DNA of 64,000 nt from Siphonodentalium dalli. Taxonomy: Eukaryota; Mollusca; Scaphopoda; Gadilida; Siphonodentaliidae. The stretch lies in NCBI GenBank assembly GCA_032622095.1, contig CP136066.1, positions 204,746,978 to 204,810,977 of the forward strand. Reading direction: 5' to 3'. This document shows positions 1,607-62,609 of the stretch, in pieces (position 1 is the first letter of the stretch; every line of letters begins with the position of its first letter). The position numbers were made by a program, and so were the translations under genes. Below the pieces are notes generated by a model that ran no database searches, had not been told where the DNA came from, and saw only the letters and a list, made by a program, of their open reading frames with translations.

Positions 1607-1682
1607 ATAAAGCCTTATATGCCTGTTTCTCTGAGCCGGAGTATGTTTGTTCAATCGCTTCCTCAATGGTAGCTCCACTTAT
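1607..1682 (-). CDS. Module D exon E6: end of annexin repeat 3; last exon in window
   Basis: 76-nt exon encoding ISGATIEEAIEQTYSGSEKQ and AYKAL plus one base. CAG acceptor at 1685-1683; donor GTAAGT from 1606. It starts with Ile where the other modules have Leu. A 453-bp hairpin element ends 15 bp inside the following intron. E7 and E8 of core D must lie left of the window. Confidence 0.92.
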
Positions 1683-4600
1683 CTGAAGGAAATGACATGA
1701 TGAGCGTATGAAATAATTAGAACGTGTTAATGACAAAACTTCAAAATAAACAAATGGTAGATAATAATATGACAGACTGCTATTCTCATAAATATATAAT
1801 ACTAGCAGGTGACCCGACTTTGTCTGGGCTTTAACCTTGAATTGACAATTTTGAAGGTCATGGTCAGGTCGGTGTCACTATTTGACCCGTCCAAAACACT
1901 TCCCGGACAAAATTACCCGAAGGTATCAAATTTCGTCGAAATCCGTCCAGCAGTTTTCCCGGCCATAGCTAACAGACAAACAGACAGAAGTCCCAAAATA
2001 TATATTAGATCATTTGTGGGTAACCGTTTCAAGGTGAAGGTCACCTTGGGCTGAAAAACTGACCCGATGAAAATCTCCCCCATTCCCAGGAACCCCTAAG
2101 TACGAACACAGACAACACGCTCATGTCTGTACACAGACACAACACGCTCATGTCTGGACACATACACGCTCTTTATCAACGACACTGCGGATACGAACGC
2201 TCTTTAACTATCACATGATTAACCCATGAATTTCCATTGTGGTGGCGGGGGATTGGAGAATGAGTGCTCTGACGTTCTCAGAAGCGGTGCGATGACACTC
2301 CATCTGGTAGTCCCAAAATATATATTAGATATATAATCTTGTTATGTTTAAATTAACTATTCAAATTAGAATAAAGTTAAACCACATGGCAGTTTGCGCT
2401 CCAAAATACACCTAATAATATTCGCTTTTGAATTTTTCCTGGTATCGAAATAGGTCAATAAATACTATGCAATACCTTTCTACATTATATTATATTTTCC
2501 AGAAAGACACATTAAAGTCATAAAAAATACAACTTTGAACACGATGATCTGGTCCCAATAAAAAAAAGACATTTTGTATTAATTGGAATTCCAGAATCGG
2601 AAACGAAATGTCCAGAAAATGTATATTGCGTTATCTTAAACACAAAACTATTTTAAAACTTCATGCACGGCTTTCTCTTCATTTTAAGCATGAACATTAT
2701 GTAATAAATGTATCAGAGCGACGTCAGATCTAGATTTTCTTCTCATGGTGTACAGTTCCAATTTTTAAGTGACCGCTGACAAAAATTGCACGGGCACTTT
2801 AACGAAACGATCTCAAATTTACCAAAAAATGTAAGAAACAAAAGATTTATTTTCAGCGCTATATTTACAAAGTTTTCAAAAATCTTCTGCATAGATATGT
2901 TTGAGATACATCTTACCAAATTATGTATACATTATAGTGGGGTTCGAATGATCGAGCCATGTCTGTTTGCATTTTCCACAGATAAATGTCCCAAAATCAC
3001 AACAGACAGCATGTTTATCCCCTAATGCCTTGTAAAGTCAATTTACCATTTCTCAGACCCGCACGAATGGTCCAGAAACCCCGCGAATGTAACCTTTTTA
3101 TTCGCATTTTATATGTCGGAAATAATTATAAGAAACTTTTAACTTTAAAAAATGATAAAAAATTGTTAGGCCAATGCATTCTCTTATATACAGTTACATG
3201 CTTTACATTATTTTTTGGCGTGAGAAATGGAAAATTGACAGAAACTAAAGGTCTAACAGAAACCACATATATTTGTGCCCCGCTATCCTCTGTGGAACAT
3301 AATCAATAGAAACAATCTAGTAATTTTTTAACCCTTCCATAATTGGAGCTTCCTGAAATTTTGCCAAAAACCTGTGCCAATGCATTCTCTTATATATGCA
3401 AGTCTCCCATAGCAAGCCTCACATATATAAGAGTATACATTGTCCTGACAATATTTACCTTCACCTTGTAAGCCAGTGCATTCTCTTATATTATGCTAGG
3501 CTCCCTATGGGGAGACTCGCATATATAAGAGAATGCACTGGCACAGGATCTTTAATGCTGCACCAGCGCAGCTCCCATCATGAAAAGGTTAAACGTTAAA
3601 AATGATTTTACTTACTTCTTTATATTTCTCAAAGATCTGCTGCCTTTGTTTGGGATTTGACATCACAGATTCTCGGAATGATTTTACTTACCTCTTTATA
3701 TTTCTCAAAGATCTGCTGCCGTTGTTTGGGATTTGACATCACAGATTCTCGGAATGATTTGTCTTTCTTGTTTATCAAGTTCTTCTCATCCTGGATAATA
3801 TAATGAAAAAACTTTTCATAAAGGACTTTAATGTAGAAATAAAATGTAATTTAACAAGTGCACCACACAGATTATCACAAAAGCCAGGTTCTGTAACATT
3901 TTGGCTTTTGTTTACATAACAAAATGTACAAACTTGACAATGACATACAATATACATGATTTATGATTGGTATAAGAACAACTTTCTGTTTATGGCAGTT
4001 TTAATGGATGTGGCAATTTTAACAGCAATACCCAGCGCGAAGGTCATCCATGCCTTTAATATCACATGATATCTATCTTTAGTGCTCTGACAAACAATGT
4101 TATTAATGTATCCTTAATGATCAAGACACCAAACCTTAAATAATTGTTGGTGGTTTGTCAGTATATTTTCTTGGCTGTTTTCTCTATGAAACTCACCGTG
4201 TATATTTCTTGGCTGTTTTCTCTATGAAACTCACCTTGTATATTTTCTTGGCTGTTTTCTCGGCGTCTCCCTCGTCCACCTTATCAGACGGTTTCTTGCC
4301 ACTGAGAACTACCATCAGTATATCATTGAGTTCTCCTTTAGTTTTCTTCTTCACATCAGATGCCATGTCTTTCTTATAATCTGGGAAAACGAGATAAGTT
4401 CAATATAATGTATGGACAATGGATACAAAGGCATAAAATGTAATGCTGCATTGAAGCCTTGAAATAGTGTGCCTGTCATTTGCAGAATGAGGTCCCCAGA
4501 GGGTGAATTTAGTGATGCTATCCGCATAGCAGGCTAGCATCACCAAATTCACCCTCTGGGGATCTCATTCTGCAAATGACACACACTATTTCAAGGCTTG

Positions 4601-7600
4601 GCTGCATTGAAATTGACTTGAAATTTGTGTCATTTGTATTAGTATGAATTATTTGATGAAAATGTTTCTAAAATATTTAATAAACTTTTCACTAAAGTTG
4701 ACTCAACTAATTTCACCCTTCTATCAGAAGTGTTTGGAAACAACTGAAATTAATTGCCGACAATGATATAAAGCAGATTAATATAGACGAAGCTATCAGC
4801 ATTATATTTACCATTCTTGTATCTGTCTTTGATCGGCTCCAATTCCTGAAACAAATATTTGTGGCAATGAATATCTTCCGAAATCTCAGAATAACTTTGT
4901 TGATATATGTAATAGGGTATGTTTATCTTTCTATACAGTTACTTTTACAAATATAACCTCAAAAACTTTAAAATCTAGATGCGAAGCTGATTGAATTGTG
5001 ATAATTAAAAACAAGAGCATCCACAGGGTGTGGCAAAATACGTCTGTGGTAATTTTAACAAAGGGCCATACCTCTGGTGAAAATTGGCAAGCAGAACCCA
5101 AATTCGTGCTTCACCTGTATTTTCGGCTAGTAAATTGCCATTCCAAATTTCAATCCATTCAGTTCAGACTTACTAAAGTTATCAACCGAAAACGAAAATT
5201 GAGTAAAAAATTCCAACAAAAAAGGCCAAATCATCATAATATGCATGCTTCAAGTATTCAAATAGATTCAAATGAAATTTCAAACTCACATCTGGTTCTT
5301 TAGTACAGACAACATCTACGAGAACCTCGTCCTTGAACTTTCCTTTGACAACCTGATTAACGCAGTAAGCTTCGTATTCCACAGGCTCCAGCATTAATGA
5401 AATGGCGAGGTTACGGAAGTCTCCAGAAAGGTCAGACTCAAGGTCATCAATACAGTTCTGAAAGTAATTTGCAAAATATGAAGCCATATAGCTACAACAG
5501 TCAGAAAATATTTCCCTTCCATGACTGGAGCTTCCTGAAATTTTGCGACAACCCTGTGCCAATGCATTAACTTATATATGAGTCTCCCATGGGGAGCCTC
5601 ACATATAAAAGAGAATAAATTGGACTAACAATATTTATTTGACCTTGTAAGCCAGTGCATTATCTTATATATGCGAGGATCCCTATGGAAGACTCACATA
5701 TATAAGAGAATGCACTGCCACAGGATATTTAATGCTGCAAAAGCACAGCTCCTGTCATGAACCTCAGGTTTAAGTAAAAAGGGCCTGATGCAATGGCTTA
5801 GACAGGACATTTATTTTCAGACCTGGTATAACAGTGTCGGACATAAATTTCAATATTAAGATTAAAGCTGAAAGTAGAAATGACAAAAACAATATTTTTG
5901 GAATTCATTTTCATTACAAAATGATCAATTATCTCTTCAAAAGAGTTGAGAGTAAATTAATTTCAATACTTGTCTGTGATATTCATATGAGAACACTCAT
6001 TCAATTAGGGACATATGACAAACTGCGGGATGGGATGGAATGTGGAACAGAATGTAAATCTGCAAATTTGAAATTGAGTGGGACGGCCAATATATTGGTG
6101 TAAGGAAAGGCCGATGTTCGCCCCAGCCAAATATACTAACCCCTGGTACTGTATTTTTACAGCGACAAAGCTATGCCCACAACCAAATTTGGTATTAAAA
6201 TGAAGATTAGCATCTATTGCACAACAGATATGTATTCATTCAAAAGAAGCGCTGATTTTTTGTATATCTAGAGACCGATTAACCCACCCATGCGAAGGAA
6301 CCACGAAAAATGGAAAACTATTTAGAATTTAGAATTTAGTACTGAAAAAGAAACTAATCCAAAAGGGGGATAATCCAGTTGTTCTGAGTATAAAATGAAC
6401 AGAAAAAAGAATGAAAGAATACAATGATACAGCTGAAATTTTAGAAAATAAGAAGAAATGCTAACCTGTTTGTATTTGTCTTGGTATTAACCCTTTACCC
6501 TACAGAACGGCCCTGTGCCAATGCATTCTCTTATATATGCGAGTCAACCATAGGTCGCCTCGCATATATAAGAGAATGCATTGGCTTAACACATTAAAAA
6601 TTATAAAATTGTTAAAGAATGTAAGAAAAAATGGTAAAAAAAGATTTTTTTTTAGGCCAATGCATTCTCTTATATATGCATTGGCACAGGGCATAACTGT
6701 AACCATCACAATGTGGTCAATGAGCCGGTTCCAATGATATCCATATTTGTATGGTTTTATTGAGACAGACCCAAGATAATTTAGGCTGTTGCAGCTTTAT
6801 TTGTATTTATCTTGGTATTAAATAGAATGCAAACCTGTTTGTATTTATCTTGGTATTAATAGAATGCTAACCTGTTTGTATTTGTCTTGGTATTAAATAG
6901 AATGCTAACCTGTTTGTAGTTGTCTTGGTATTAAATAGAATGCTAACCTGTTTGTATTTATCTTGGTATTAAATAGAATGCTAACCTGTTTGTATTTGTC
7001 TTGGTATTAAATAGAATGCTAACCTGTTTGTATTTGTCTTGGTATTAAATAGAACGCTAACCTGTCTGTATTTGTCTTGGTATTAAATAGAATGCTAACC
7101 TGTTTGTATTTGTCTTGGTATTAAATATAATGCTAACCTGTTTGTATTTATCTTGGTATTAAATAGAATGCTAACCTGTTTGTATTTGTCTTGGTATTAA
7201 ATAGAATGCTAACCAGTTTGTATTTATCTTGGTATTAAATAGAATGCTAACCTGTTTGTATTTGTCTTGGTATTAAATAGAATGCTAACCTGTTTGTATT
7301 TGTCTTGCTATTAAATAGAATGCTAACCTGTTTGTATTTATCTTGGTATTAAATAGAATGCTAACCTGTTTGTATTTATCTTGGTATTAAATAGAATGCT
7401 AACCTGTTTGTATTTGTCTTGGTATTAAATAGAATGCTAACCTGTTTGTATTTGTCTCGGTATTATATAGAATGCTAACCTGTTTGTATTTGTCTCGGTA
7501 TTATATAGAATGCTAACCTGTTTGTATTTGTCTCGGTATTTTGTATTTGTCTTGGTATTAAATAGAATGCTAACATGTTTGTATTTGTCTTGGTATTAAA

Positions 7601-10600
7601 TAGAATGCTAACCTGTTTGTATTTATCTTGGTATTAAATAGAATGCTAACCTGTTTGTATTTGTCTTGGTATTAAATAGAATGCTAACCTGTTTGTATTT
7701 ATCTTGGTATTAAATAGAATGCTAACCTGTTTGTATTTGTCTTGGTATTAAATAGAATGCTAACCTGTTTGTATTTGTCTTGGTATTAAATAGAATGCTA
7801 ACCTGTTTGTATTTGTCTTGGTATTAAATAGAATGCTAACCTGTTTGTATTTGTCTTGGTATTAAATAGAATGCTAACCTGTTTGTATTTATCTTGGTAT
7901 TAAATAGAATGCTAACCTGTTTGTATTTGTCTTGGTATTAAATAGAATGCTAACCTGTTTGTATTTGTCTTGGTATTAAATAGAATGCTAACATGTTTGT
8001 ATTTGTCTTGGTATTAAATAGAATGCTAACCTGTTTGTATTTGTCTTGGTATTAAATAGAATGCTAACATGTTTGTATTTGTCTTGGTATTAAATAGAAT
8101 GCTAACCTGTTTGTATTTGTCTTGGTATTAAATAGAATGCTAACCTTTTTGTATTTGTCTTGCTATTAAATAGAATGCTAACCTGTTTGTATTTGTCTTG
8201 GTATTAAATAGAATGCTAACCTGTTTGTATTTGTCTTGGTATTAAATAGAATGCTAACCTGTTTGTATTTGTCTTGGTATTAAATAGAATGCTAACCTGT
8301 TTGTATTTGTCTTGGTATTAAATAGAATGCAAACCTGTTTGTATTTGTCTTGGTATTAAATAGAATGCTAACCTGTTTGTATTTGTCTTGGTATTAAATA
8401 GAATGCTAACCTGTCTGTATTTGTCTTGGTATTAAATAGAATGCTAACCTGTTTGTATTTGTCTTGGTATTAAATAGAATGCTAACCTGTTTGTATTTGT
8501 CTTGGTATTAAATAGAATGCTAACCTGTTTGTATTTGTCTTGGTATTAAATATAATGCTAACCTGTTTGTATTTGTCTCGGTATTAAATAGAATGCTAAC
8601 CTGTTTGTATTTGTCTTGGTATTAAATAGAATGCTAACCTGTTTGTATTTGTCTTGGTATTAAATAGAATGCTAACCTGTTTGTATTTATCTTGGTATTA
8701 AATAGAATGCTAACCTGTTTGTATTTGTCTTGGTATTAAATAGAATGCTAACCTGTTTTTGTATTTGTCTTGGTATTAAATAGAATACTAACCTGTTTGT
8801 ATTTGTCTTGGTATTTAATAGAATGCTAACCTGTTTGTATTTGTCTTGGTATTAAATAGAATGCTAACTTGTTTGTAATTGTCTTGGTATTAAATAGAAT
8901 GCTAACCTGTTTGTATTTGTCTTGGTATTAAATAGAATGCTAACCTGTTTGTATTTGTCTTGGTATTAAATAGAATGCTAACATGTTTGTATTTGTCTTG
9001 GTATTAAATAGAATGCTAACCTGTTTGTATTTGTCTTGGTATTAAATAGAATGCTAACCTGTTTGTATTTGTCTTGGTATTTCTCCCTGATGTTTTGTCT
9101 CTGAGAGTTATTGTTCCTGGATATGACATCTATAATAGTATCCTCATCAGTTCCCAGCCCCTTCATTGCTTTATACAGCTTATCCCAGTCCTCATTAGAA
9201 TCATCCGGCTTCTCATCCTTTTTCTCTTCTTCTTTCTTTTGTTCCTGCTTTTCTTCTTTCTGTTGCTCTTGAACAATAGATTTCTTTCTCTTTTTCTCTT
9301 CTTTTTCTTTTTTCTTCTTCTCTTCATCCTCTTTTTTCTTCGTTTCCTTCTCTTCCTTTTCTTTCTGTTTTCTCTCTTCTTCCTCCTTTTTCTGTCTCTC
9401 TTTCTCTTCCTCCTTTCTCTGCTTCTCTTTTTCTTTTTCCTTCTTGTCATCTTCCTTCTGTTGTTTCTCCTGTTGGACGGGAACGGGAACAATGACTTGT
9501 TGCTCTTTTTGCTGCTCTTTTGTTTGTCCTGTTTCTTTTTCTTTCTTTGGTGATTTTACTTTCTTTTTCACATCTTTCTCTTTGATCCTAGGAAAAATGA
9601 GAAATTATTGTAAGTAGTTAAAGATTCAAGAATCAATTTCATCAGGATATTAATCGCTAGGAAACAAGGCATCTGGAGAAACAGTTTAATTAATTTTATA
9701 CCATTGTCGATAAGCCAGAGATCATACCTTAACCCTTTCAGTGCCAAGTCCGATTTTTGTATTAACCCATGTACCCTGTGCCAATGCATTCTCTTATATA
9801 TGCGAGTCGACCATAGGTCGCCTCGCATATATAAGAGAATGCATTGGCCTAACAATTTTTAATATGGCCCCTGACACTGAAAGGGTTAATTCTGTATGTC
9901 TTCATGTTGTGAAATAGTGACGACTGTCATGCAATGCAAAATGAAAAACAGTGTTATAATAATTGATGAATTTCTAACATTATTCCACAAATCAATATTT
10001 CAGTACATTATGATTTGACAACAACAAAATTGTTTGAAAGTAAATAATTTAACACTGAAAGTATGAGCTGATATAAAAGTTAGGGTGAATGAAGAATTCT
10101 CAATACATGTTTAGCAAGCAACTTGTCGAATATATCTGCTAATAATAATTTGATCGACAGAGCTGTGGAAATGTCATTAACCCTTTACCCAACAAACCGG
10201 CCAAAATAGGGCAAATAAAGCTTCAACAGCCTAAAATATCTTCGGTCTGTCTCAATAGAACCATACAAATATGGATATCATTGGAACCGGCTCCTTGACC
10301 ACATTGTGATAGTTACAGTTATGCCCTGTGCCAATGCATTCTCTTATATATGCGAGTCGACCATAGGTCGCCTCGCATATATAAGAGAATGCATTGGCCC
10401 AAAAAAAATCTTTTTTTAACACTTTTTACCATTTTTTCTTACATTCTTTAACAATTTTATAATTTTTAATGTGTTAAGCCAATGCATTTTCTTATATATG
10501 CGAGGCGACCTATGGTCGACTCGCATATATAAGAGAATGCATTGGCACAGGGTCGTTCTGTTGGGTAAAGGGTTAACAAAACGGATTAAATCCTTACTTG

Positions 10601-13600
10601 TCTCCTATAACAGCTAGCAGTAGTTTCCTGTAATCTCCACTCGTTTCTGATTTTATTTCTTTTATCACGTTCTTCTCATGAAGCTCCTCAAACTTAGCAC
10701 CGACGGCTGGAAGATCCTTCTGGAAGATACAGAGAATATAGCATTCATTGAAAGCGATGAGTTTCTGAATGGGGAAGCTTTAATGAAATGAATTGTAAAT
10801 GAAACATATATATTCAGTTCTAATTAAAAATAGTCTCCCGAGTCAAAACATTTGACAATTTGAGTATAACTGTAGTTACACTGCGCTTAAAGGCATGGGT
10901 TGCATTCATTGCAGAATTATTCATATTTGTTCAAATAGCCATCAACAGAAGGAATATTAAAATATATATAGTTTTGCTCATATGCCAAACATAATCAGCA
11001 CATAAATAGTATATTGATCATCGAAGTACGATGGTGTACGTAAACAAGAACCTGCTCGTGTTACAGAAGTTTTGCTTCTGTTTGCATAACACAGCGCAAT
11101 TCTATTGGTTAATCACACACAAATGATATAAACGCTCTTTATTATTTCCATGTCAGGAAAACAGTAACAAATAACGCTCTTTATGTTTACCATATCCGGA
11201 TCTAAACAAAAGCCAGGTTCTGTAACGCTTTTTGCTATTTGTTTACATAACAAAGGAAAAACATTTGACAATAACATACTGTTTATGCCATATTTCTGAT
11301 TGGTATAAGATCAAAGTCTGTCTATATTTTACTATTCTTTCTGTTTATGGTGGTTTTTGATGAAGCTGAATATTTTAATAGCATACCCACCACCAATGCT
11401 GCCCGTATCTTTAACTTACAGCCTATAGCCACTGTTATGAAACTCAACAATCAACCGATGAGCATCGAACTCATGTACAGTAATGCCCTAAGTAATCGAC
11501 TCCATAACCACAGCAGAATTATGGGTAACTTTTCAGGATTTAGTCGGAAAAAGTTACCCATAATTCTGCTGTGGTTATGGAGTCGATTACTTAGGGCATT
11601 ACTGTAACTGTCAACACAATGCTACAAGTCAAACATACACTAAAACCTTTGAGCGACCAACCCCCATTTCACAAATTGGATAATGATAGTTTCACATTCA
11701 CTCTTGTAAACCCTTTCAGTGTCAAGTCCGATTTTTGTATCAACCCATATTTCCTTGATCATTTAATCAAATTTATTGATTATAATAATGTGATACATTG
11801 ATGGAAAGAGCTTTTAGATTGGTTGATACAAAAATCGGACTTGGCACTGAAAGGGTTAAAACTAGACCCAGGTTGCATTACAGTCAACACTCAGTCTAGA
11901 GACTCTGGTAAATTGATTTCAGAGATGAACTGGGAATCCCCAGCTCACGACAGCTCATTAATATTCATGTTTTAAATTATGCACTGTTTACTGTTTTGAT
12001 TGAGCGACAAAGCCCACATGGGTTAATAACAATGGCCATAACCTGTAGGCGTTTCTGTGGATAAATAAGCCTTGTAGAATATTCTCATTTTCTGGTTTCT
12101 GTGAATCAATGCCTATTGTATGCAATACATTATTAATTGTTATGTCAAGAATTTCTATTTCACCATGTTTTATTTGTACAGTCTCACTTTCTCTATCACT
12201 TCCACTTTCCATAATACTATATTATTGTGTGGGGCTTATAATTGTAAATAAGTGAAAAGGTGTGAATAATTATTGATTTTGCAGGAAGTTATTGATTGGT
12301 TGAGCAACACTTTCTTTAATGCACAAGTATTTTCATTGGCGCGATTCCTCCCATTTGAAATATGTTATTCCATGGGAGTCCCCAGACCGTAAGTTGATTG
12401 AAATGAAACATGGTCTAGTTTTAACAAGACTGTGTTGCAGTGTGCTATGTGAGAAAAATGTCAACCCACCCACTCATGAAAACTGATATAAAACTTACTT
12501 CTTCTCTAGACACGACGACCCGACTGAGCAGATCTTCATTGGTTCCCAAACCGCTGCATGAGTCGGCAAAATTATCAGCACAGTGAGCAGGAGGGTCTTC
12601 TTTGGACTTCACTGTTGCATGTTAAAATATCAGATACAGAAAAATTTAGGTTGCATGAATATAACAAGCTGGTTAATTATCTCACAGAAGGCATGCATGG
12701 TAGTCATCTGATATTAATGATGAAATATATGAAGTAAAGACGGTTAAAATGCATTCAGCATTGCAACACCTAATATTACAACATTGGGACCTTTATTGAA
12801 CTAAATTAAGCACCATCTATCGGTTATTTTAGAGATAGTTGCATCAGAAATCAAGCGTTAATTTATGACCATGGTCCTCTAAACATGACGTAAAGAGATC
12901 ATTTCTGAAAGAAATGAAGAACGTTCGAAAAAAAAAAGAAAAAAATAGTGCATGGATCCTAAGACCACTAGTCATTTTGGCATAGTTAACTCCATGCCAT
13001 GCAATATCTATATAACAGTCTACTTCTCCCTAATAAATTAATAGGGAGAAGTAACTTCTCCTAATTTGAAACCAAGGCTGTCAATAGTTTGAAGATGATA
13101 TAAACAATTAAATATTTCACCATTTCTGTCCTAAATGCTCATTGGCAAGTAGTTATCCCTGAGGAAATGTTCACTACTGAACATTTCCCACCAATGAATA
13201 TGAATCATTCTGCTCTTGTATCATCTGTTATTATGTCTGTCAAACTGAATGGGAGAATGTTGTCAAACTGAATGGGAGCTAGAATGTTCTTTCTGTCTGC
13301 CATCTGCTTTTATTACCTGAACAGGCCTCCAAATGAATAATAGACTGTTCCAATGTATACTTTTATAACTCAATGGGAGAATGCAATTTGTAAGAAAGGG
13401 TTAAATAATAACTCACATAGAGCCAGATATGCTTGTTTCTCTGATCCTGAGTAAGTCTCTGCAATGGCCTCCTCAATAGTAACCCCACTCAACTGAAAGA
13501 ATCATTATTAGAATGAAGAAGTGTCATTTACCGCCTCAAGAATGAATTTCTCGAAGGAAGTATGTATCGCCTCAGAAAAGAAAAAGGCAGAAAATAATTT

Positions 13601-16600
13601 GCAGAGCTCTTGATTATCTGTCAAGTCTGAATTGCTCAAATTATAATTTAAAAAAAGTTCAATGTCAAGGGTGTCATGTGCCCCAATGCTCAGTTTAGAG
13701 AGTGTGCCATGCTAAGTGTTTATATGCATGGAAAATTATTATTTCAAGAAGGTCAATCACTGAGGAAACTGAATGAATAAAATCCATTGTCTATACCTCA
13801 TATTGACTTTTCACTATTCCAAAAGATGTTCAATTACAACCGTTGGTACTTTAGATTGTGATGGAAGGGTGGAAAATCTTGCTATTTTATTCTTCTAAGT
13901 CCAACAATGTCAATAACTCTGACAAACAGACATGGAGTAAACCTGTCAGTATCCTTCCTTAAATCCTGGTCTATTAACATCCAAATAACACACATTTTGG
14001 TCTATTAACATCCAAATAACATTCAAGTCGGATCATTGCTACTGAAGTTACAATGCAGAATGTCTGTACAGAGTGAAAATTAAATATATTTCTAAGTACA
14101 ACAAGGGCTGGTAACAATTAATGAACTTAGCCCATGGTAAGTGGGTAACCTTTCCCCAAACTGGGCTATTACCATACCAAAGCACATCAAAATTTGATGA
14201 TTGGCACCAGAGTAGGGTTGAAACGATTAATCGACTAGTCGAAGACGACGCTGAAATGTCAGAACGTCGACTCTGAATTTTGCCGTCGACTAGTCGGAAC
14301 ATAGTGTATTAGTTCCATGTATAACATTTTCAAGATCGATTCCGACATAAACGGTGTTAACTGCGCGTAAGTTACAGTAAGTATAACGTTTGGTGGCACC
14401 CGGAATTGACAGTGTTACTAGTATAGACACACACGGTGACCCGACTATTACTTGAAAGAATGAAATTGACAACACAATGTCTCACTCGTCGTTTGAGGTC
14501 AAAGACATCACTGCGACATGATGGCAATGATTGACGCGGCTTTATCGCTTGTCGGAGACCGCTTTGATCTAGACACTGTGTATATTTAAATTGATCAATT
14601 GAAGGTCGCTTTAGGTGACGTCATTGTTGCTACCGTGTATAAATGATACTGACATTAAGAACTGGCTATCGTTTTCAACAACATAGCCTATTCTATAGGG
14701 CGTATTTAGTCGGAACATTAACATTTTATAGTGACACCGCTCGGCACCGGTTTATTGGTGATCACGTGACTAAACGAAATCTCGAACGCAGATATTAAAT
14801 TTAAAACCTGTATAAATGATCGAGTTTCTAATCATTATCCACCACATGTCTAATTATATAATTACATTCAGTGTGTTGGATAAATATCAAGATGTTTACA
14901 GTATTATTTCCCAAATAAATTGGTGTTTATGCAGGGAAATGCGCTACGCAATAGACCGCCATTGCATCAGTCATCAGTGTACGCCATGTATGATGAATTT
15001 TCCGTACCATGTTATGTTTGAAAGTTTTGATATCGGGTACCGACTAGTCGACGCAACGTGACTTATGGGTCTCGACTAGTCGACTCTGAAATTCACTAAT
15101 CGTTTCAACACTACACCAGAGTTACAACGCTAACTGTTCATATGGAGACAAAAGTAACAAATTTCCAAGTCAACAAGAGCTGCAATTCAGGTAAAAATTA
15201 TGTAACAAAACCTGTAATATGAACGGTATCCTTTCCCCCAACTGTGCTATCACCATGCCAAAAGGACAATGAAATCCGATAGTTAACACCCGATTTACAA
15301 GGTGAAACATACGGACGTATATTTTGCCCTGAATATCCCAATGACAAAACCTTAATTTTCATTTTGGTTTTATTACCAACATCAGATCGATATCAGCAGG
15401 ACCCACTAACAGTAGGTTTTTGGAGAGCCAGTTGAATGGTAAGTATGTTATCAAACATTATAAAACTCACGTCTTTGTGGTTGTTAAAGATTTTCTGCCG
15501 CTGATCTGGGTTAGACATCACAGCTTCTCGGAATGACTTGTCCTTCTTGTTTATTGGGGTTTTCTCATCCTGAAGAAATGATGATAAAACCGATTCACTC
15601 AATCAGAATTTTTGGTCTGAGAAAAGGAAACAAATTTGCATGACCTTATATAGTCTAGCAAGGCTGAATTCAACAACTATGTAACATATCCTTTTGGAGC
15701 TTTGTCAGTTTATTTATGAAACTGACCTTGTATATTTTCTCTATCAAACTCACCTTGTATATTTTCTTGACTGTTTTCTCTATGAAACTCACCTTGTATA
15801 TTTACTTGGCTGTTTTCTCTATGAAACTCACCTTGTATATTTTCTTGGCTATTTTCTCGGCCTCTCCATCATCCACCTTATCAGACGGTTTCTTGCCACT
15901 GAGAACTCCCATCAGTATATCATTCAATTCTCCTTTAGTTTTCTTCTTCACGTCAGACGCCATGTCTTTCTTGTAATCTTAAAACAAAAAGACCATCATA
16001 ATACAATCATTCAAAGAGAAACCAAGCATGCTATACATATAGGTTATCACCACCATGAGGGTTTCCGAGATCTGTATTCAGGTTGAGCTATATCCTCTGG
16101 GCTGTATATCAATGAGTCCTCCAGGATAACCATGCAGACCTTGAAATAGTTTGTGTCTGTCATTTGCAGAATGAGGTCCCCAGAGGATGAATTTAGTGAC
16201 GCCATCACGGCATAGCGGGCTAGCATCACCAAATTCACCATCTGCGGACCTCATTCTGTTGAAGTCTCAACTGCTATGGGAGACATACGAACAGATTGAA
16301 GTTCCCCAGTTGAAGTTGGTGATGTTCACCCATTAGTCACCTCGATAATACATTTTATCTTCTGCAAATTAGGCGATATAAACACTGAACAGAAGGGAAA
16401 AAGTAACTAAATACATTGTTAATTTGAGATGATAGATACTTCCCAGAAGATAAGGCCTAAGCAGAATGAGTTCCCCAGAGGGTAAATGACATGGGAATTA
16501 TGCCATATTGTGTATGAAAGGGCACACCACCTAGTTGACGTCGCATTGCGTCACTGCGAAGTATTAATTATTCAGTGTGTTAAATATAGGTCCGTTTATG

Positions 16601-19600
16601 CATAAGTGTTGAAATTATCAAAACATTGCTGTTTTTGTAGAATGCAATACATTTTCAAGTGTTTTTTCGTTCGTCATAGCCACTGGAAATATATCATTTG
16701 ATTTGAAATGATATATGTATATGTCTGATTATAAAGAGAATAGAAATAATTAATGCCAATTGCCCATCCACATATAAATCTGCTGGGATTGTTGTATACA
16801 TGGTTTAGATATCATTCCATAGCAACCATTTCAACTTTCATGTTTGACAGCTGAGTACAGAATGAGGCTCAGGCATGCTCTACATTCAACTGTGGGTCTG
16901 TCCATCAAAATATTCAATTTAAAAAATAACATGTTCTGTTGCAGAAACCTCAAGCCTAATAGTTTATAACGTACCTTCCTTGTATTTATCTTTAACAGGC
17001 TCCAACTCCTGTAACAGAAGATATATATGAGCTTAGGGGTTTGTTACATGAGCCAGAGTAACTCAGTCTGCCGAGTGGTGTGGGCGGTAACTAAAAACGT
17101 CACTCTCACGACGCGAACATTCTATTGGCTGATGTCATGTTAAGTCACAACGAATCATGTTACAATCCAATTTAACAGGGATGACTCTCTGTTATATGAG
17201 CCGAGTTGTCCCGGCTGAACGAGTTATCCCGGCAAGGCGGGATGGGTTATCCCAGCCTACCCAGTTTGAGCAGAACATGAAACATATATATTCAATATAT
17301 ATTCAACTAGACTGTGACCAATGGGCCTGAGGATAGATCCATGGAACAACTTTAACAGGTTTCTTAGTAGTCAGCGTAATTTAAAACATACCATCTAATA
17401 GTCTTAATTATATACAACTGTTAACAATGCAAGACAACTCACAATTAAATACTGTGTAGAAGTAACAATAGATTATAGGTCAGTGAGTGCTTGAATATTT
17501 TTGGCTATTCATACATAATATTATAGTCTTTTGATGCTTAAAGTTAGAAGTCACACTTGTCTGATGCCCATCAATGTTCTCGCTGGTCCAAAATAAATCT
17601 TGTAGCCAAAATTTTAGCCATTTCCAGATTTTTTAGCAAATAGAAAAATTTTAAGCCACTTTATACTCCAGGGTATAATCAGCATTTAATAACTCAGATT
17701 TTTAATTTATTTGTGATATTGTCCCTGTTACTATAAATGGTTCAATATCAGTAAAAACGATCATAGAATAAAGAAATAACATGTACAATATAGCACATTC
17801 ATTTATCATATCGCGCATGTAGTTTGCAACATACAGAAGCATATACAATGCAATTGATTGTAGATACCGCTGGGTTTTGCACAATCATCCTTGCTTGAAT
17901 AATTGTCGACAATAGATTGGGCACGTCCCTCAAATGATAGCCACCATGGTGTACACACATATTTACTTTTCATCGAGCTATGGTATTGATGGGTGAGAAT
18001 AATATGAAATGAAAACCCAAAGTTTACGCAACGACTTAATCACACACACCTTCAAACTGCAGTGAGATGACTGCCTTTTGTGCAACTGCTATTAGCTGCA
18101 TTCACTGGCACTCAATGGTAATTAGATCCATGACAAAGACGGTGTGACGCCAACGCCACTGTCTTTTACGCTGCCATTTTTTTCGCCATTTGACAAGTTA
18201 TTTTAGCAATTTCTATTTATTTTTCGCATTTGGCTAAAATGGCTTACGGCAGTGCGAATACTGATGTCCATTGATATTCAACTTACCTCTGGAGTTTTAG
18301 TACAGATGACATCCACGAGAACCTCGTCCTTGAACTTTCCTTTGACAACCTGATTAACGCAGTAAGCTTCGTATTCCACAGGCTCCAGCATTAACGAAAT
18401 GGCAAGGTTACGGTAGTCTCCAGAAAGGTCAGACTCAAGGTCATCTATACAGTTCTAAAACAGAATATTAATTATGTGATTGATGTTATGACACCACATC
18501 ACGGACCAAAGAGAATTAGTGGAATTTTTCAGATTGATTTTTCAGGTATCCAGCACGATTTTCAAAAGCTTACAGAAAATGCGTTTGTATATGATGTCAA
18601 AACTGAGGCCATATATTTTTTTTAAGCATTTAAACAATAATCAAGCACTGATTATCTGCTTCAGGTTCAATCATAAATAGAGGATCTCTATTGAGGAGCA
18701 ATTCTATACAAAATTTATAAAAAGAGTGCAGTAATTTAATTAAAAATAACATTGATTTCCTTATCACAACCAAAGAAAAGAAAATTAAGACACCTTCAAG
18801 AAAAAATATAGATCCATTTTAAATGTGTCTTTTCATGTTGATAAAATTGTTCAACCGCCCTTATCACCTATGCTTATCTCACAGTCAACACTAAATAACC
18901 CAACACAAATCGAATATCATAATTATATTCTAATTAACATAATAATAACATTGGTCGATATCATTGGGCTAAGCTCTTATGTCACTGCGCATGCTGATAA
19001 TACATGTGAGTTTTACTAAAAATATGAGTCCAGGTTTTGGGGCTAATTATGTGAAAAAACAAATTAATGCACAGTCAGACAATTTTTCAAAGCCAATAAT
19101 GATTATAGCATATTGATTGCATTACTGTACTCCATCTCACGTCTAATTGAACTGAGTTTAGACGGTGTAGTTATATTCCACCTGAGAATTTGATGTAGTG
19201 ATGATAATCAACCTTTATTAACAGAATTTAGAATTTTATCACATAATCACATTTTAGCAAGGAAAATATAGATTTCCTTATCACAACCAAAGAGAAAGTA
19301 AACCTCTGTTTTAAATATTTCTTTTCATGTTGTCAAAATTGTTCAACCACCCTATGATGTTTATCTCAGTCAACTCTAAATAGCCCAACACAACAACACA
19401 AATAGAATGCTAACCTGTTTGTATTTGTCTTGGTATTAACCCTTTACCCAACAAACCGGCCAAAACCGGCCAAAACCGGCCAAATAAAGCTTCAACAGCC
19501 TAAAATATCTTCGGTCTGTCTCAATAGAACCATACAAATATGGATATCATTGGAACCGGCTGCCTGTCCACATTGTGATGGTTACAGTTATACCCTGTGC

Positions 19601-22600
19601 CAATGCATTCTCTTATATATGCGAGTCGACCATAGGTCGCCTCGCATATATAAGAGAATGCATTGGCCTAAAAAAATCTTTTTTTTAACACTTTTTACCA
19701 TTTTTTATTACATTCTTTAACAATTTTATAATTTTTAATGTGTTAAGCCAATGCATTCTCTTATATATGCGAGGCGACCTATGGTCGACTCGCATATATA
19801 AGAGAATGCATTGGCACAGGGCCGTTCTGTTGGGTAAAGGGTTAAATAGAATGCTAACCTGTTTGTATTTGTCTTGGTATTAAATAGAATGCTAACCTGT
19901 TTGTATTTGTCTTGGTATTAAATAGAATGCTAACCTGTTTGTATTTGTCTTGGTATTAAATAGAATGCTAACCTGTTTGTATTTGTCTTGGTATTAAATA
20001 GAATGCTAACCTGTTTGTATTTGTCTTGGTATTAAATAGAATGCTAACCTGTTTGTATTTGTCTTGGTATTAAATAGAATGCTAACCTGTTTGTATTTGT
20101 CTTCGTATTAATAGAATGCTAACCTGTTTGTATTTGTCTTGGTATTAATAGAATGCTAACCTGTTTGTATTTGTCTTGGTATTAAATAGAATGCTAACCT
20201 GTTTGTATTTGTCTTGGTATTAAATAGAATGCTAACCTGTTTGTATTTGTCTTGGTATTAAATAGAATGCTAACCTGTTTGTATTTGTCTTGGTGTTAAA
20301 TAGAATGCTAACCTGTTTGTATTTGTCTTGGTATTAAATAGAATGCTAACCTGTTTGTATTTATCTTGGTATTAAATCGAACGCTAACCTGTTTGTATTT
20401 ATCTTGGTATTAAATCGAATGCTAACCTGTTTGTATTTGTCTTGTTATTAAATAGAATGCTAACCTGTTTGTATTTGTCTTGGTATTAAATAGAATGCTA
20501 ACCTGTTTGTATTTATCTTGGTATTAAATAGAATGCTAACCTGTTTGTATTTGTCTTGGTATTAAATAGAATGCTAACCTGTTTGTATTTGTCTTGGTAT
20601 TAAATAGAATGCTAACCTGTTTGTATTTGTCTTGGTATTAAATAGAATGCTAACCTGTTTGTATTTGTCTTGGTATTAAATAGAATGCTAACCTGTTTGT
20701 ATTTGTCTTGGTATTTCTCCCTGATGTTCTGTCTCTGAGAGTTATTGTTCCTGGATATGACATCTATAATAGTATCCTCATCAGTTCCCAGCCCCTTCAT
20801 TGCTTTATACAGCTTATCCCAGTCCTCATTAGAATCATCCGGCTTCTCATCCTTTTTCTTTTCTTCCTTCTTTTGTTCCTGCTTTTGTTTTTCCTTTTTC
20901 TTTTCCTCTACTTTTTTGTCTTCCTTCTTTTGCTCTGATTTTGGAGAATCTTTCGCCTTGTCTTTTTTCTTATCAGGTTTTTCTTTCGGAGATGGACTTC
21001 TCTGTTTTTCAGGTGATTTAGCCCTTTCTTTCTTCTCGGGAGACTTTTCCCGCTTCGCTGACTTTGCTCTTTCTCTCTCCTCTCTTTCTTTCTCTTTTCT
21101 TGGTGACCGGCTTTGGGGACGTTCCGGGGAAGCATTTCTGCGTTTAGCAGATTTCTGCTGGGCACTAGGAGAGGGAGTCCTCGACCGTTCGCCCTCCCTT
21201 GTCGAACCTCGATCAGCTAATATAGCCGCGGGATAAATTGATGGTCTTGGACCTGCTTTTTCTTCTTTTTTCTTCTTCTCATCTTTCTTTTTATCGTCTT
21301 TCTTCTTTGACTTATTGTCCCTATAAAATCAAGGATATAGTGTGTCTGACATTTGAGGAATGAGGTCCCCAGAGGGTGATTTGGTGATGATATCACCCTA
21401 AAACTGCATAATGTCTGAAAAGATGAATTGAGTGCTTATGTCTGCCAGATTATCGTGGTTGAATAATATTTATGTTGTTTTGGTCCTTCACACAATAAAA
21501 AAATAATTCTCGAAATGGCTGCCAAAAACTAAAATATGGAATGAAAAATATTTGAGTTTTAATTTCTTGCAGAGTCATTATTTCAGATGGTGGACTGAGC
21601 GCATACCCTAATTGGATATATTTCCTGTTAAACTCTCCATCGACCTGCCTCCAAAATCTGGGTTTTGTTTTATAAACCCACTTTTTTACATAATTGGAAC
21701 ATAACTCTCATGTTGTGAGTTTGAACATGTGTTGTTATTGTACTATAGCATACATTGGTTACAGAAGATAATGATTTTCCCCTTCAAAGTAATTGTTTTA
21801 AATTGAGATTTTTTTTAAATTCACAAATGGGGTGCCTCCTTATTAAACAGGATTATGTTGATTTTACTTTTTATCTAGTACAGCAACAAGTAGTTTCCTG
21901 TAGTCTCCACTCGTCTCGTCTTTGGTGTCTTTTAACAGTTTGGTCCCAAACAGCTCCTCATATGTGGAACTAATAGCTGGAAGATCCTTCTGAAATCAAA
22001 ATAACAATTGGTAACTCTTCAATATATATGCAGAACAACACCAGTGGGTTAATGTGTTTGTTGATATGGCATGAGGGCTAACCAATAATGCTAACAACAG
22101 TCAACTATAGTATCACATTGCGCAAAAGTATTATTTATCAACATTTTTTTCAACGAAATTTGGCCGCATTGTCAAATATCTAATACCCAAAGGCACTTGA
22201 TTTTAGAGTTAACCATGTTCATCCGCAATTTTTCCCGAGACCGTCGGCTTGACGAATATTTGTCAGGCCACCAAAAATTACATATCTCGGGAAATAACAA
22301 ATTTCAAAAATCAATATCTCATCACTCTGAGCATTGATGGATGGGTTCCTCGACTCGAATCAGATAATTTTTACCCCCGAAGCAAAAGAAATAGTAATTT
22401 GGGAGCGTTAATTCTGATTATGCATCTCTAAGCAATTCGAACAATGACCATTTTCGCGTGAGTTCCACAGGTCTCCAGAATAAAAATTGACCCCACCTCC
22501 AATAATACTTGAGTTCAGTGTTCGCTGTGTCTATAGGCTGGTCACCACCCCTGAGGGAATGACTTTCATGATGGTTTCATATGGAAGGATAGAATGAGAG

Positions 22601-25600
22601 GTGCAGCCTTGAGCTCTATCCTTACACAATGGCAAAAGTGTCGTATCAACAAACCCATTAACTCATGTGTCGATCTGCGTTTATTACACATCATCCATCC
22701 TAGAATTTGTGCATAAAAAAATACAGGCTTAATACAAGGGTTAGTTAGGCACATTTAGGACTTGTTTTGTCATGTGTGATGATGCTTTTATTTTATGGTT
22801 CCGGTTTCATGGTTGAGGCGAACGTCATGTACGTCATTTGATGTCGACAAGATGCATAACGGAATGTATGTTCCATATGAATTTGTACATATGGAACAGC
22901 AAAACACTGTAATTCTAGGAACAAGCATGTAAAAATACTCAAATAAAACAAGAATCGCATCAGAGATGTGGGATTGAGTTTCGAGAGCTATGACACAAAA
23001 ATCAGACTTGGCACTGAAGCTGACAGGGTCATTGTCACAAGGCTTCAGTCACATTCGTAGCCAACTTTTTAAATCGATCACAAATGTAGCCAGCTTTTCA
23101 CCGGCGATCACATTCATAGCCAGCTTTTCTAATTCCATGCTTTAATGGCGCGAAATATGACATCATATATATATATGTTATAAGATGTACCGTACTAATA
23201 ACAAATTAAAAGTCAAGTTGTTTTTCATCCACCAACTCAGAAAAATGAGATTAACCTATAATCTTCTTCATTGCATGAGGCTTGCATGAATATGAAAAGC
23301 TGGCTACAAATGTGATCACCATAGAAAAGCTGGCTACATTTGTGATCGATTTAAAAAGCTGGCTACGAATGTGATCGATGCCTTGTGACAATGACCCCAT
23401 CAGCGGCACTGAAAGGGTTAATAATAAGTCTCAAATTCCTAATATCAACAAATCAGCTGATATTTGTTCAAGTTATTGCACTATCGCTATAAAATATAAT
23501 GAAAAGGAACTAATAAAGGGCTGTAACTCTGCTCAAAGTAAACAGACCTGGATCTAGTCAAGACGATTCAAACAATAGAAAAACCCATTTCCTGCTAAAA
23601 TTAACATAAACATAATAACACTCTGCCAACTTTATCCCTAGATGAGTAAGTTATCCCTAAGGAAATGTTCAGATAATAAGTTCAACAGTGAACGGTCGGC
23701 GACCTAGATGACTTTGGTGAGCCAGAAGGAGACTTGTCTGGCTACTGACACAAGGGCTGCATGCTGTAATAAAATGAAAGTAAATCAAACCTCTTCTCTG
23801 GATATAACAACCCTGTTGAGTAGATCTTCATTAGTTCCGAGTCCAGTGAAAGTCTCGTGCAGTTTCTTCGCATAGGATGCTGGAGCATCGTCATCTTTTG
23901 AAACTGTGGGATAAATAATTACTGTCTTCAGACATTACTTTTATAATTTCATAGACTTAATCCCAACAAGCGCTATTTGATATAATTTAATCCCAAAATG
24001 ACCACAAATCGAATCAATTGTACCATAATTCATATTCTCATCCTCACATTTATGTGTGGATGAGAGGAATTCTCTGAAATAGAGAGGGAAGAAATCAGAG
24101 GGAGTGAATATGTTAACATAACATAGCAATTCAATTATCAATTGACCTCAATTAATTGACACCTCGGTATTGGGAAGACAATGACCTATTACCAGTATAT
24201 GTACTATGTTATTTTAACATTTTCACTCCTGAAGATATTTGTACGAACATATGCAAATTGGAATCAGTGTCTTACCTAAGCTGGTGTAAGAATCTCTCAT
24301 TTCATCTTCATATGACTGGTTCACAGGGTGATTTACCTAAGCTGGTGTAAGAATATCTCATTTCATCTTCATATGACTGGTTCACTGACCTACCTAAGCT
24401 GGTTTCAATCTCCATACAGTTGCGTCCCTTTGCTATGCTTCGCGCTCCGGAACTGGTTTGTGCTTCTCATTTCATCTTCACATGACTGGTTCACAGGGTG
24501 ATTTACCATAGCTGGTGTAAGAATATCTCATTTCATCTTCATATGACTGGTTCACAGGGTGACCTACCTAAGCTGGTTTCAATCTCCATACAGTTGTGTC
24601 CCTTTGCTATGCTTCGCGCTCCGGAACTGGTTTATGCTTCTCATTTCATCTTCATATGACTGGTTCACAGGGTGACTTACCTAAGCTGGTGTATGCATCT
24701 CTCATTTCATCTTCATATGATTGGTTCACAGGGTGACTTACCTAAGCTGGTGTAAGCATCTCTCATTTCATCTTCATATGACTGGTTCACAGCATCAGCG
24801 ATCGGAATTCCACTTAGCTGTAATAATAACAATAATGGTGCTTATATAGCGCTTATCTCCAGTACCATGAGCGGACCCTAAACACTTCATGTTACAGTGA
24901 AACCTCTCCAAACCAGACCCTCTACAATCCGAATCCCTCTCCATTCCGAACGAATTGTTCGGTCCCGAATTTACCCAAGTGCATTGTCACTAAACCTCTG
25001 TACTCCGAACATCGGACGGCTTTTCTGGTCGACAAGTGAACGAATACATTAATTTTCACCTCCGAAATCCGAACACGAAAAGCAATACCAACCGAACGAA
25101 CGCACGTGGGGTAAATTGACATAATTGATGCTGATCGAGCTCTTGCTGGTATATACCAGGGATTCTTTAAAAGTTTAGATGTCTGGTTAATTAAAACTGT
25201 TTTGGTGACTGCATGCATACAAACCATCGTGATTGAACCAATGATGCACAGCCGAATAACAATAAATAAGAAAACTGCATTTCCAATTATGTATAATACT
25301 TTATGTAAAATACCCGGCCCAGACACATTGTTTATCTCAATGTTTTGACAACATTCCCATTGTTCACTAATTGGCAGCTGAATTCAAACTCAAGTGATTT
25401 TATTTGATAATTAGCAACCACTATTCAAAGTGACATTAAACTCTATTCATCAATACTGTATTCACACTTCACTTAGCCAGTACAGCCTCAAAGGAATCGC
25501 GCTGAGTTTATCTTATCACCAGCAGTAACTATGCAGTGTTACATCATGTGGACATGTCACGCTCTGCTTGATTTCCGTATTGTATCTACAGTACCGATCA

Positions 25601-58600: not shown

Positions 58601-61600
58601 GGGGGTCGATTTTTTTTTTTTTTTTTATTATTTGTGAAATGTTTTACCCCAGACAGCTGCTCTGGATATAGGGTCCTGCGAATATTCGAGATTTGAATTG
58701 AAGTCTATATCGATCACGCGATTTGAGATCGACACCAAATAAGTTAATATCCTTGTATATCAGGCCCTCGCGCATGCACCGAAACACCACGAGTGCAACC
58801 TTTTTTTTATTCGCATATATCTGTTGGAAAAAATTATAATCGGTATGAAATAATTGCAGTATATTTTTCTACAAATTGCTCCGAACTGCATGCGATCGAA
58901 CATAACCACTTCCAGATTAAATTTCTGATTCATACACGTTGTTGTGATGAATTGTGTTGGCAAACTCAATAAAAATTGTGCCAGCGATACTCTATATGGT
59001 GATTTCTATAAAATAACTAACATGGAATTATCAACTTTTATGGGCATTTGTTTGAGGGGTAATAGTGGTTTGTAATAGTGGTCACAGGCAACTGAAATTA
59101 AACCCAGAGCTAGTCAATCTAGGAGTGGTATTCTTCGTTGGCGTGTCTCCCAGATAAAAACAAATTAAACAAAAAACTGTGTGATTTACAAAATGTTTTG
59201 GCCTGGGAAATGGGAAACTTATTTTACATGGACTTATCCATGTGAATATCTTTTCACTGCCTTCTCATGTAATCTTGCTCAAAATGTACTAATTGAGAAC
59301 TCAAAAACTACTGATTGAACAACTTATGATTGGATAAAAGGGGTTTGAAGCAGGAATAAGATAATTATGACGGGATAAAATATATTTTAGATCCTTATGT
59401 CACAATTTACTAAATTCTTTCACTTAAAAGGTCCAGGCTGTTATAATATATGAGAGGCATATTCATAAACAGATTAGCACTGAGAAATTTATGTCAAAAC
59501 TGGAACAAGAGCATCGCTAGAGCATGGCAAAATACACCCGTGGTAATTGCAATAAAGGGCATAACTCTGGTGAAAATTTGCGAGTGGAACCAAAATTTGA
59601 ACTTTTAGATATCGGAATTTGAATATGTGAAAAAGAGCCGATTCGCAGGACCCTACATCAAAGAGACTGATTTGGGAAGTAAAACGGTTTGTTGCATAGT
59701 ATAGTTGTTTGCGTAACAAAACTGATCCTAGATTGATGGATAGGTAGGAGATAGTGTATCTTCCATGCCTTTGAAGATGGATAGCGTTTTAAAACTACAA
59801 TAGAATACAATAGGCCGTATAGATATTTATTTAATAGAGGGACAAGAAAATATTTTGGGAGATCGTTGTTTATCGAAATGATCAATTAGGCTCTAACAGA
59901 GCATACAGTAATACCATAAATAATCGACTCCTTAACCACAGCAGAATTATGGGTAGTTTTTCAGGATTTAGTCGAAAATATGGCTTATCGAAAAGCTCTC
60001 AGTGAGAGCTTTCCGATGAATGGCAACAAGCCATATTTTAGACTAAATCCTGAAAAATTACCCATAATTCTGCTGCGGTTAAGGAGTCGATTATTTAGGG
60101 CATTAGTTTAGCTCTGACCACCTGTTACCTAAATTTTTTACATAAAAAATCATGGAAAAATGCCAAGTGATTATTTGGAGGATATTAAGAAGTTTGGCAA
60201 GCATTAGTATAGTCCTACAGTAGATTTAAGCATATATCATGGCAGCTAAGATACGTAGTCCTTATCATTATTAGAACCTTAAACCGTGCTTGAAAAAAAT
60301 GTGAAAAACCTCAAAATGTGTTTAAAATTTTCGTGTTAACCCTTCCATGACTGGAGCTTACTGAAATTTTGCGAAAACCCTGTGCAAATGCATTCTCTTA
60401 TATATGTGAGTCTGCAATAAGGAGCCTCGCATTTATAAGAGAATACATTTGCCTAACAATATTTGCCTTAACCTTATAAGCCAGTGCATTATCTTATATA
60501 TGCGAGGCTCCCTATGGGAGACTCACATATATAAGAGAATGCACTGGCACAGGATCTTTAATGATGCACCAGCGCAGCTCCAGTCAAGAAAGGGTTAGAT
60601 GTTAACTTCGATATCAGACTACTCTATATGCTCCATAAAGTTTTAAAATAATATAATTGCTTTTTTCAAACCAATTCATTTTTTTTCTGATTTAGCAAAA
60701 ACAATTCCAAAATGAAGACGAACAGAAGATAAATGTGCATCAGCAAGATGTACTGTCTGACGTTAAGCACTAATAAATACTTGTGTGACGTCTCTCAATT
60801 TGTCTCGAAACTCGGATGAAAACATTCCTGTAATCTGTATGTATATGAACATTCCGTTAAAGGTAACAAAGAAAGCGAGCGACATTTGATTGGCTAACAC
60901 ATTTTGAGGAAGTCACGGATGCATAACATGAGGATGAATCTGACAACATAATAATGCAGGCACTATGAATGTGTAGCCCTTACTTCTCAGCAGCTAACGT
61001 TAGCAGTATAATCTTATAATCTCCGCTCGTCTCGCTTTTGATCATCGCTCCCAGTGACTTCTTGTATTTCTTCTTAAATCTCTCCTTGATGAATACCAGA
61101 TCAATCTGTAAAAAGATTACAAAAAATTGTATTAAATATTTTAAATTTGAAATCCATTTAAAAAAAAAATCGGAATTATCATCAATTGTTTTAGTCAAGT
61201 TATATAATGCAAATTGTAATTCAAGTTGAATATTTGTTGCTAAAACATGCATTTTGTTCAGAATACAATTACGACCCTTGGAATGGACACCCTTATCTTA
61301 TATTGAATAAAAGCCAAATCCGTGAGTAAACCATTCAGCTTTATTTATTTGAATAACAGGTCACTGACCAAATTGTCCCCCGATGAAGGTGGCAGGTTTG
61401 AAGGATTTATGGGTTTCAGATCCCTATACTACAAACTTTAGTCAGGAGGAATTGATTACACCAATATGGTACAAAGTGCATCATTCACTAAATATGTTGC
61501 ACATCTTCAATGTGTCGAGAAAGGGTCAATAACTCTATAATAGAAAACAATAAACATTTCTATGTCGAAAAATGGCAATAACTCCAGACAACTCCACCAA

Positions 61601-62609: not shown

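Follow-up and report, generated by a model that had tools for sequence, protein, structure and literature searches.

Annexins are calcium-switched membrane binders that normally have one core, and sometimes two, per protein. Textbook annexins are Ca switches of four repeats, with eight repeats in annexin A6. In single-core annexins (A5, A4, B12/XII) the N-terminal tail is free. Among the open-licence annexin papers listed, compared by title and the start of the abstract, none describes an annexin of more than eight repeats. One abstract gives annexin A6 (ANXA6) eight repeats, and a 2025 review states a range of four to ten for the family (PMC12249911).

Here we describe an annexin locus in the 2.23-Gb, nine-contig genome of Siphonodentalium dalli that lies outside this range, with 15 cores (nominally 60 repeats). 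The closest described system is ANXA6 (PDB 1m9i and 1avc), which was the best PDB match to the core and linker of core 5 (6.7e-89, in two 1m9i stretches) and likewise carries more than one four-repeat core per chain. Our protein comparison covered PDB, and automatic database entries of such chains may exist. ANXA6 has two cores in PDB chains of 672-673 residues, whereas the chain predicted here has at least 6,123 residues, and its 15 cores set it apart from ANXA6-type octad annexins, which have exactly two. An earlier note on part of this DNA had proposed a poly-annexin far outside the normal repeat number, with at least four cores and possibly more. Extending the sequence on both sides bore this out, as all 15 cores can be read in one frame.

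Fifteen annexin cores in one array

The stretch of DNA analysed first (the window) is 64,000 nucleotides long (C6:204746978-204810977) and lies within a 239-kb minus-strand annexin locus. Window coordinates, which are C6 coordinates minus 204746977, are used below wherever no contig is named. Pfam annexin matches, together with searches for start-of-core and end-of-core exons, traced an annexin-exon array on the minus strand from ~204.82 to 204.58 Mb of C6, and the window plus 190 kb of flanking DNA gave a 253.9-kb stretch with no N. We found 15 complete annexin cores (c1 to c15) in a single minus-strand array. Splicing in silico joined 119 exons into 18,372 nt in one frame, encoding 6,123 aa (~705 kDa) over a genomic span of 239,213 bp. 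There is no internal stop, and the single stop of the spliced frame is at the very end, in core 15.

Exons were found by homology, AG/GT boundaries and phase, the linker acceptors being chosen by motif and those of c1-c3 by hand. The spliced model has GT at 118 of 118 donors, AG at 119 of 119 acceptors and phase 2 at all 14 E8-to-linker joins, but these counts follow in part from the method, because the finder demanded AG, GT and the core 3 phases and because acceptors were picked. The finder did not impose that each core has such sites in homologous positions, that the frames stay open, or that constraint acts at the protein level. Independent support comes from the homologous site positions, the G at donor position +5, the lost stop of core 13, and pN/pS.

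Each core follows a plan of eight exons: E1 (the linker and the first half of repeat 1), E2, a 34-nt E3, and E4 to E8, with E2 and E3 fused in core 2. Introns between successive cores measure 330-2,247 bp in 13 of 14 cases, and the remaining one, between c1 and c2, measures 23,198 bp.

Of the 119 exons, 24 lie in the window, every one of them on the minus strand. Core 1 contributes E6 (62534..62609), E7 (61832..61941, in repeat 4, with GLGTNDN) and E8 (60984..61105, ending AA/GTAAGG, where the slash marks the exon end). Core 2 begins with linker exon E1 (37026..37785), which encodes a 209-aa linker and the start of repeat 1, and continues with the fused E2+E3 (35019..35217), E4 (30721..30869), E5 (29126..29227), E6 (24742..24817), E7 (23791..23903, in repeat 4, with GLGTNED) and E8 (21868..21989, ending AA/GTAAAA). 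Core 3 consists of linker exon E1 (20693..21320, with a 165-aa linker), E2 (18287..18454), the 34-nt microexon E3 (16975..17008), E4 (15832..15977), E5 (15471..15569), E6 (13417..13492), E7 (12499..12611) and E8 (10598..10719, ending AA/GTAAGG). From core 4 come linker exon E1 (9059..9587, with a 132-aa linker), E2 (5290..5457), the microexon E3 (4812..4845), E4 (4235..4380), E5 (3692..3790) and E6 (1607..1682).

The earlier note had listed 24 minus-strand exons with matching phases from 62609 to 1607, and we recovered them with exactly the same limits. Its three core-to-linker joins (60984/37785, 21868/21320 and 10598/9587) were in frame and were reproduced to the base, and the two complete cores that it counted are cores 2 and 3. 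Cores 1 and 4 are truncated by the window ends. E1-E5 of core 1 lie outside at C6:204818206-204811321, and E7 and E8 of core 4 fall just past the window end, followed by cores 5-15 as far as C6:204578994.

Upstream of core 1, we looked for a first exon with an ATG among Met-bearing open frames of at least 55 aa, and none was convincing by eye. Downstream, the Pfam, core-start, core-end and c5-core searches covered the ~100 kb between core 15 and C6:204473566. The match at C6:204473566-204473673 (minus strand) was considered as a 16th core and rejected; it reads as the terminal exon of a different annexin gene, which has a stop of its own, ~105 kb away.

Annexin identity and sequence history

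By repeat content and Ca motifs the predicted chain is an annexin, and it is new in architecture. In each of the 12 cores scanned (c1-c4 and c8-c15), the score of the Pfam annexin family (PF00191) lay far above the cut-off; 11 of these cores gave four stretches and c15 gave three. Cores c5, c6 and c7 are 98-99% identical to c4. The type II Ca motif, a GxGT loop with its acidic partner, is present in repeat 1 of all 15 cores and in repeat 4 of 14 (lost in c14), giving about 30 candidate Ca sites. In c9-c12, K or H follows the GxGT of repeat 4. Pfam Annexin matches and the Ca motifs of repeats 1 and 4 are common to these cores and to single-core annexins. Unlike in single-core annexins, the motif is mostly lost from repeats 2 and 3: repeat 2 has it in c1 and shows a GxGA variant in c14, and repeat 3 lacks it in all 15. 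A further difference is that a linker joined to the preceding core stands here in place of the free tail.

The locus appears to record its own history, with divergent cores at both ends and near-identical c3-c8 between them. Protein identity between cores ranges from 33% (c14-c15) to 99% (c4-c5, c5-c6 and c5-c7). In a tree, c3-c8 group together (100/100), with c4-c7 inside them (100/97), and long branches lead to c1, c2, c14 and c15; the pairing of c1 with c15 was flagged as possibly false. Divergence is uneven along the core. Among c3-c13, pS is 0.065 in the last ~150 nt of E1 and 0.28 in E8, compared with 0.5-0.9 in E2-E7. The same holds within c9-c13, where pS is 0.058 in the last 135 nt of E1, 0.335 in E8 and 0.60-0.92 in E2-E7. 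Examples of nearly identical exon stretches in the window are 20693-20842 (E1 end) and 10598-10719 (E8), both on the minus strand. The introns beside E8 have an ungapped identity of ~0.3 past the first 20 nt, near chance. Together, the low pS of the E1 end and E8 and the near-chance introns indicate that homogenisation or nucleotide-level constraint has acted on these exon stretches of c3-c13. The pattern looks like exon-restricted homogenisation, and the E1 end and E8 flank each linker on either side.

Searching the genome with the c5 core gave at least 78 matches at E 0.001, of which 77 are in the locus (one on the opposite strand) and one is on C7. Inside the core 5 part, a stop-bearing copy of core residues 106-153 (the E4 region) lies on the plus strand at C6:204718881-204719024. 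At C7:93878106-93891117 (plus strand), of which the first 10 kb were examined, two successive sets of annexin repeats may belong to a two-core annexin or to two genes.

Core 1 and the reading as one chain

The DNA by itself strongly supports a single-chain reading: the 15 cores probably form one in-frame spliced giant annexin, plausibly a Ca-switched multivalent membrane binder. The join between core 1 and core 2 is where this reading meets its most serious competitor, namely that core 1 is a gene of its own and that a 14-core gene (c2-c15) starts inside the 23-kb c1-c2 intron. The size of this intron favours two transcripts, as does the linker acceptor of core 2, the weakest of the linker acceptors, whose score of 2.72 falls at the 1st percentile of other acceptors. 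Core 1 also enters its own charged exon in phase 0, unlike the other cores, shares just 35-38% identity with them, and has kept a canonical repeat 2. Against this, the E8 donor of core 1 is good (AA/GTAAGG, score 7.98), it is matched in phase by the core 2 acceptor (hand-picked with phase in mind), and no other charged open segment was found inside the c1-c2 gap. We therefore regard two transcripts as unlikely, though worth keeping in view, and core 1 as probably on the same transcript as cores 2-15. Note that the two-transcript alternative is compatible with the single-chain reading as regards cores 2-15.

Charged linkers between the cores

A charged stretch of 130 residues precedes c1, twelve inter-core linkers measure 88-209 residues, and those ahead of c14 and c15 measure just 11 and 13. 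The linkers are rich in K, E, D and Q, and the 15 linker stretches contain no Met in 1,657 residues. This agrees with the earlier note, which had reported Met-less linkers of 130-210 residues; the three concerned have 209, 165 and 132. The linkers evolve as coding sequence and are constrained as protein, with a pN/pS of 0.12 at a pS of 0.55 in c4-c7. Nine of the 11 linkers of c4-c14 carry I(K/E/P)E(K/R)DV directly at the acceptor, and close variants start c10 (IEEKEV) and c11 (IEERDP). Across this strand of the 253.9-kb stretch, every charged open segment (18 or more K/E/D/R/Q in 30 residues; 53 of 53) overlaps an annotated exon. Linker acceptors are weaker than others, with eight of the 15 at or under the 11th percentile of other acceptors.

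Spacers made of a charged single alpha-helix (ER/K-type) are a known family. The c4-c8 linkers resemble them in having runs of 66-90 residues that are free of P and G and 81-84% charged. AlphaFold2 modelled the c4 linker exon, one of the 15 linkers, as a single 85-residue helix (residues 38-122), from a six-row alignment that included five other linker exons. The pLDDT of this helix is 76-91 in 10-residue blocks over residues 41-110 and 67 at 111-120; for the linker model overall, mean pLDDT is 70.6 and pTM 0.30. The linkers differ from ER/K-type helices in their i/i+4 and i/i+3 charge pattern, which is barely above that of shuffled sequences in c4-c8 (z 1.5-1.8), gives a z of 0.6 in c2, and is below shuffles in c1, c3 and c9-c13. 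Because this shuffle test is weak or negative, we claim no common rigid helix; a rigid spacer is a candidate for some linkers, not for all.

Such linkers could also be places of cleavage. Nematode polyprotein antigens are precursors cut into repeated units, and by analogy the chain might be cut in its linkers into single annexins. The similar repeated units with K/R-rich linkers between them would suit a precursor of this kind. We consider it improbable, as the 15 linker stretches contain no furin-type R-x-[K/R]-R site and there is almost no linker to cut at c14 and c15.

Splice donors or stops at the core ends

Whether the locus encodes a chain or tandem genes is the central question, since AA/GTAAG also reads AAG TAA (Lys-stop). 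Annexin genes commonly duplicate in tandem, and annexin N-terminal tails vary. The array could then be a row of independent annexin genes that each begin with an ATG exon, upstream of a charged N-terminal exon, and use the TAA or TGA after E8 as their stop. If the donor is unused, 13 of the 14 non-terminal E8s do run into an in-frame TAA or TGA (AAG-TAA or AAG-TGA in 12, AGG-TAA in c14). The AATAAA present in eight of the 14 inter-core introns (a raw count) and the weak linker acceptors also fit separate genes.

The sequences at these ends nevertheless read as splice donors. From c1 to c7 they are GTAAGG, GTAAAA, GTAAGG, GTGAGT, GTGAGT, GTAAGT and GTGAGT, and from c8 to c14 they are GTAAGC, GTAAGA, GTGAGT, GTAAGT, GTAAGT, GTATGT and GTAATA. 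A donor-like site thus stands at the E8 end of all 14 non-terminal cores. That of c2 is weak, the weakest of the 14, and scores lower than all 104 other internal donors. Position +5 is G in 12 of the 14, compared with 15% of random intronic GTRA sites. The E8 donor score averages 7.83 over c1-c14. Random intronic GTRA sites average 2.03, and when such sites were drawn 14 at a time, none of 100,000 draws reached the mean of c1-c14. The 14 donors are not independent events, because the E8 copies are partly homogenised.

The exceptions among the core ends are consistent with donors as well. Core 13 has lost the in-frame stop (AAG TAT) and has kept a fair donor (GTATGT, score 7.55). Core 15, the true last core, ends E8 with a TAG stop and no GT donor. 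As controls, we took last exons of other annexins in the same genome; three of five stretches were readable, all three end in a stop, and none has GTRAG there. GTAA also stands at the stop of the C9 control and is therefore not decisive by itself. An ordinary tandem gene array would be expected to show a stop without a donor at its core ends, whereas here only c15 does.

Space for gene boundaries would also be scarce. A poly(A) site, a promoter and a first exon would hardly fit into the 13 short inter-core introns, and the c8-c9 (330 bp) and c2-c3 (547 bp) gaps lack AATAAA, with one ATTAAA in c2-c3. Donor-like sites at 14 of 14 non-terminal core ends, a core 13 without a stop, the 330-bp c8-c9 gap, and constrained linker exons without Met all argue against separate transcripts; the DNA thus speaks against poly(A) addition after each E8 and separate first exons, and we judge separate genes to be very unlikely. 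An operon-like array, in which spliced-leader trans-splicing onto each linker exon supplies the ATG from the leader, would explain why linker exons begin at an acceptor and lack Met, and flatworms do have spliced leaders that carry ATG, but it would make the donor consensus at the E8 ends needless and is highly improbable here.

Possible function and significance

If the 15 cores do form one chain, a rise in Ca would make many cores bind acidic phospholipid jointly (at about two type II Ca sites per core), and the resulting high avidity could let the chain staple or space membranes. Its charged linkers would act as spacers, the c4 linker being a candidate single alpha-helix of ~13 nm according to its model. 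A multivalent membrane tether switched by calcium is plausible in view of how annexin cores are known to behave. Each of the units c2-c14 has the same intron phase at both of its ends and could therefore be skipped in frame, and splicing could in this way tune the length of the chain. A more specific proposal, which we offer tentatively and do not favour over its negation, is a membrane ruler or zipper: a 15-core, ~705-kDa annexin polymer of phase-matched cassettes, with ~30 candidate Ca sites and stiff spacers of ~10-13 nm, whose length would be set by in-frame cassette skipping.

A 15-core chain would be the annexin family's titin. It would put to the test annexin cores as avidity beads on a spacer, and the locus would show a membrane-binding module multiplied within one gene.

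Repeats and other observations

Two tandem arrays of a 38-bp unit (19842-20715 and 6800-9081) are built from the E1 end and the first bases of intron 1, so that a 5' splice site is repeated tens of times. Within the first 2.5 kb of the intron, the near-copies number 23 and 58, respectively, and core 9 has 65. We considered whether tandem repeats start preferentially at donors across the locus and rejected this, as they do so at 25 of 118 donors compared with 87 of 465 random intronic 16-mers (no enrichment). At acceptors, on the upstream side, the count is 3 of 118. Other intron repeats in the window (36154-36349, 46603-46799 and 37836-38106) have units of ~103 and 135 bp that look self-complementary, and by eye they resemble miniature inverted-repeat elements.

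Elsewhere in the genome, a search for the mollusc haemocyanin domain PF14830 gave no match, a negative that does not show absence. The one COX1 match, full-length and of mitochondrial type, lies on the minus strand at C1:108127492-108128832, within a contig of chromosome size. It contains five TGA codons, is open under table 5 and looks somewhat like the COX1 of heterodont bivalves, and it adjoins a frame that we take to be NAD2 from its appearance. This COX1 reflects either mitochondrial DNA copied into the nucleus or a join made in the assembly.
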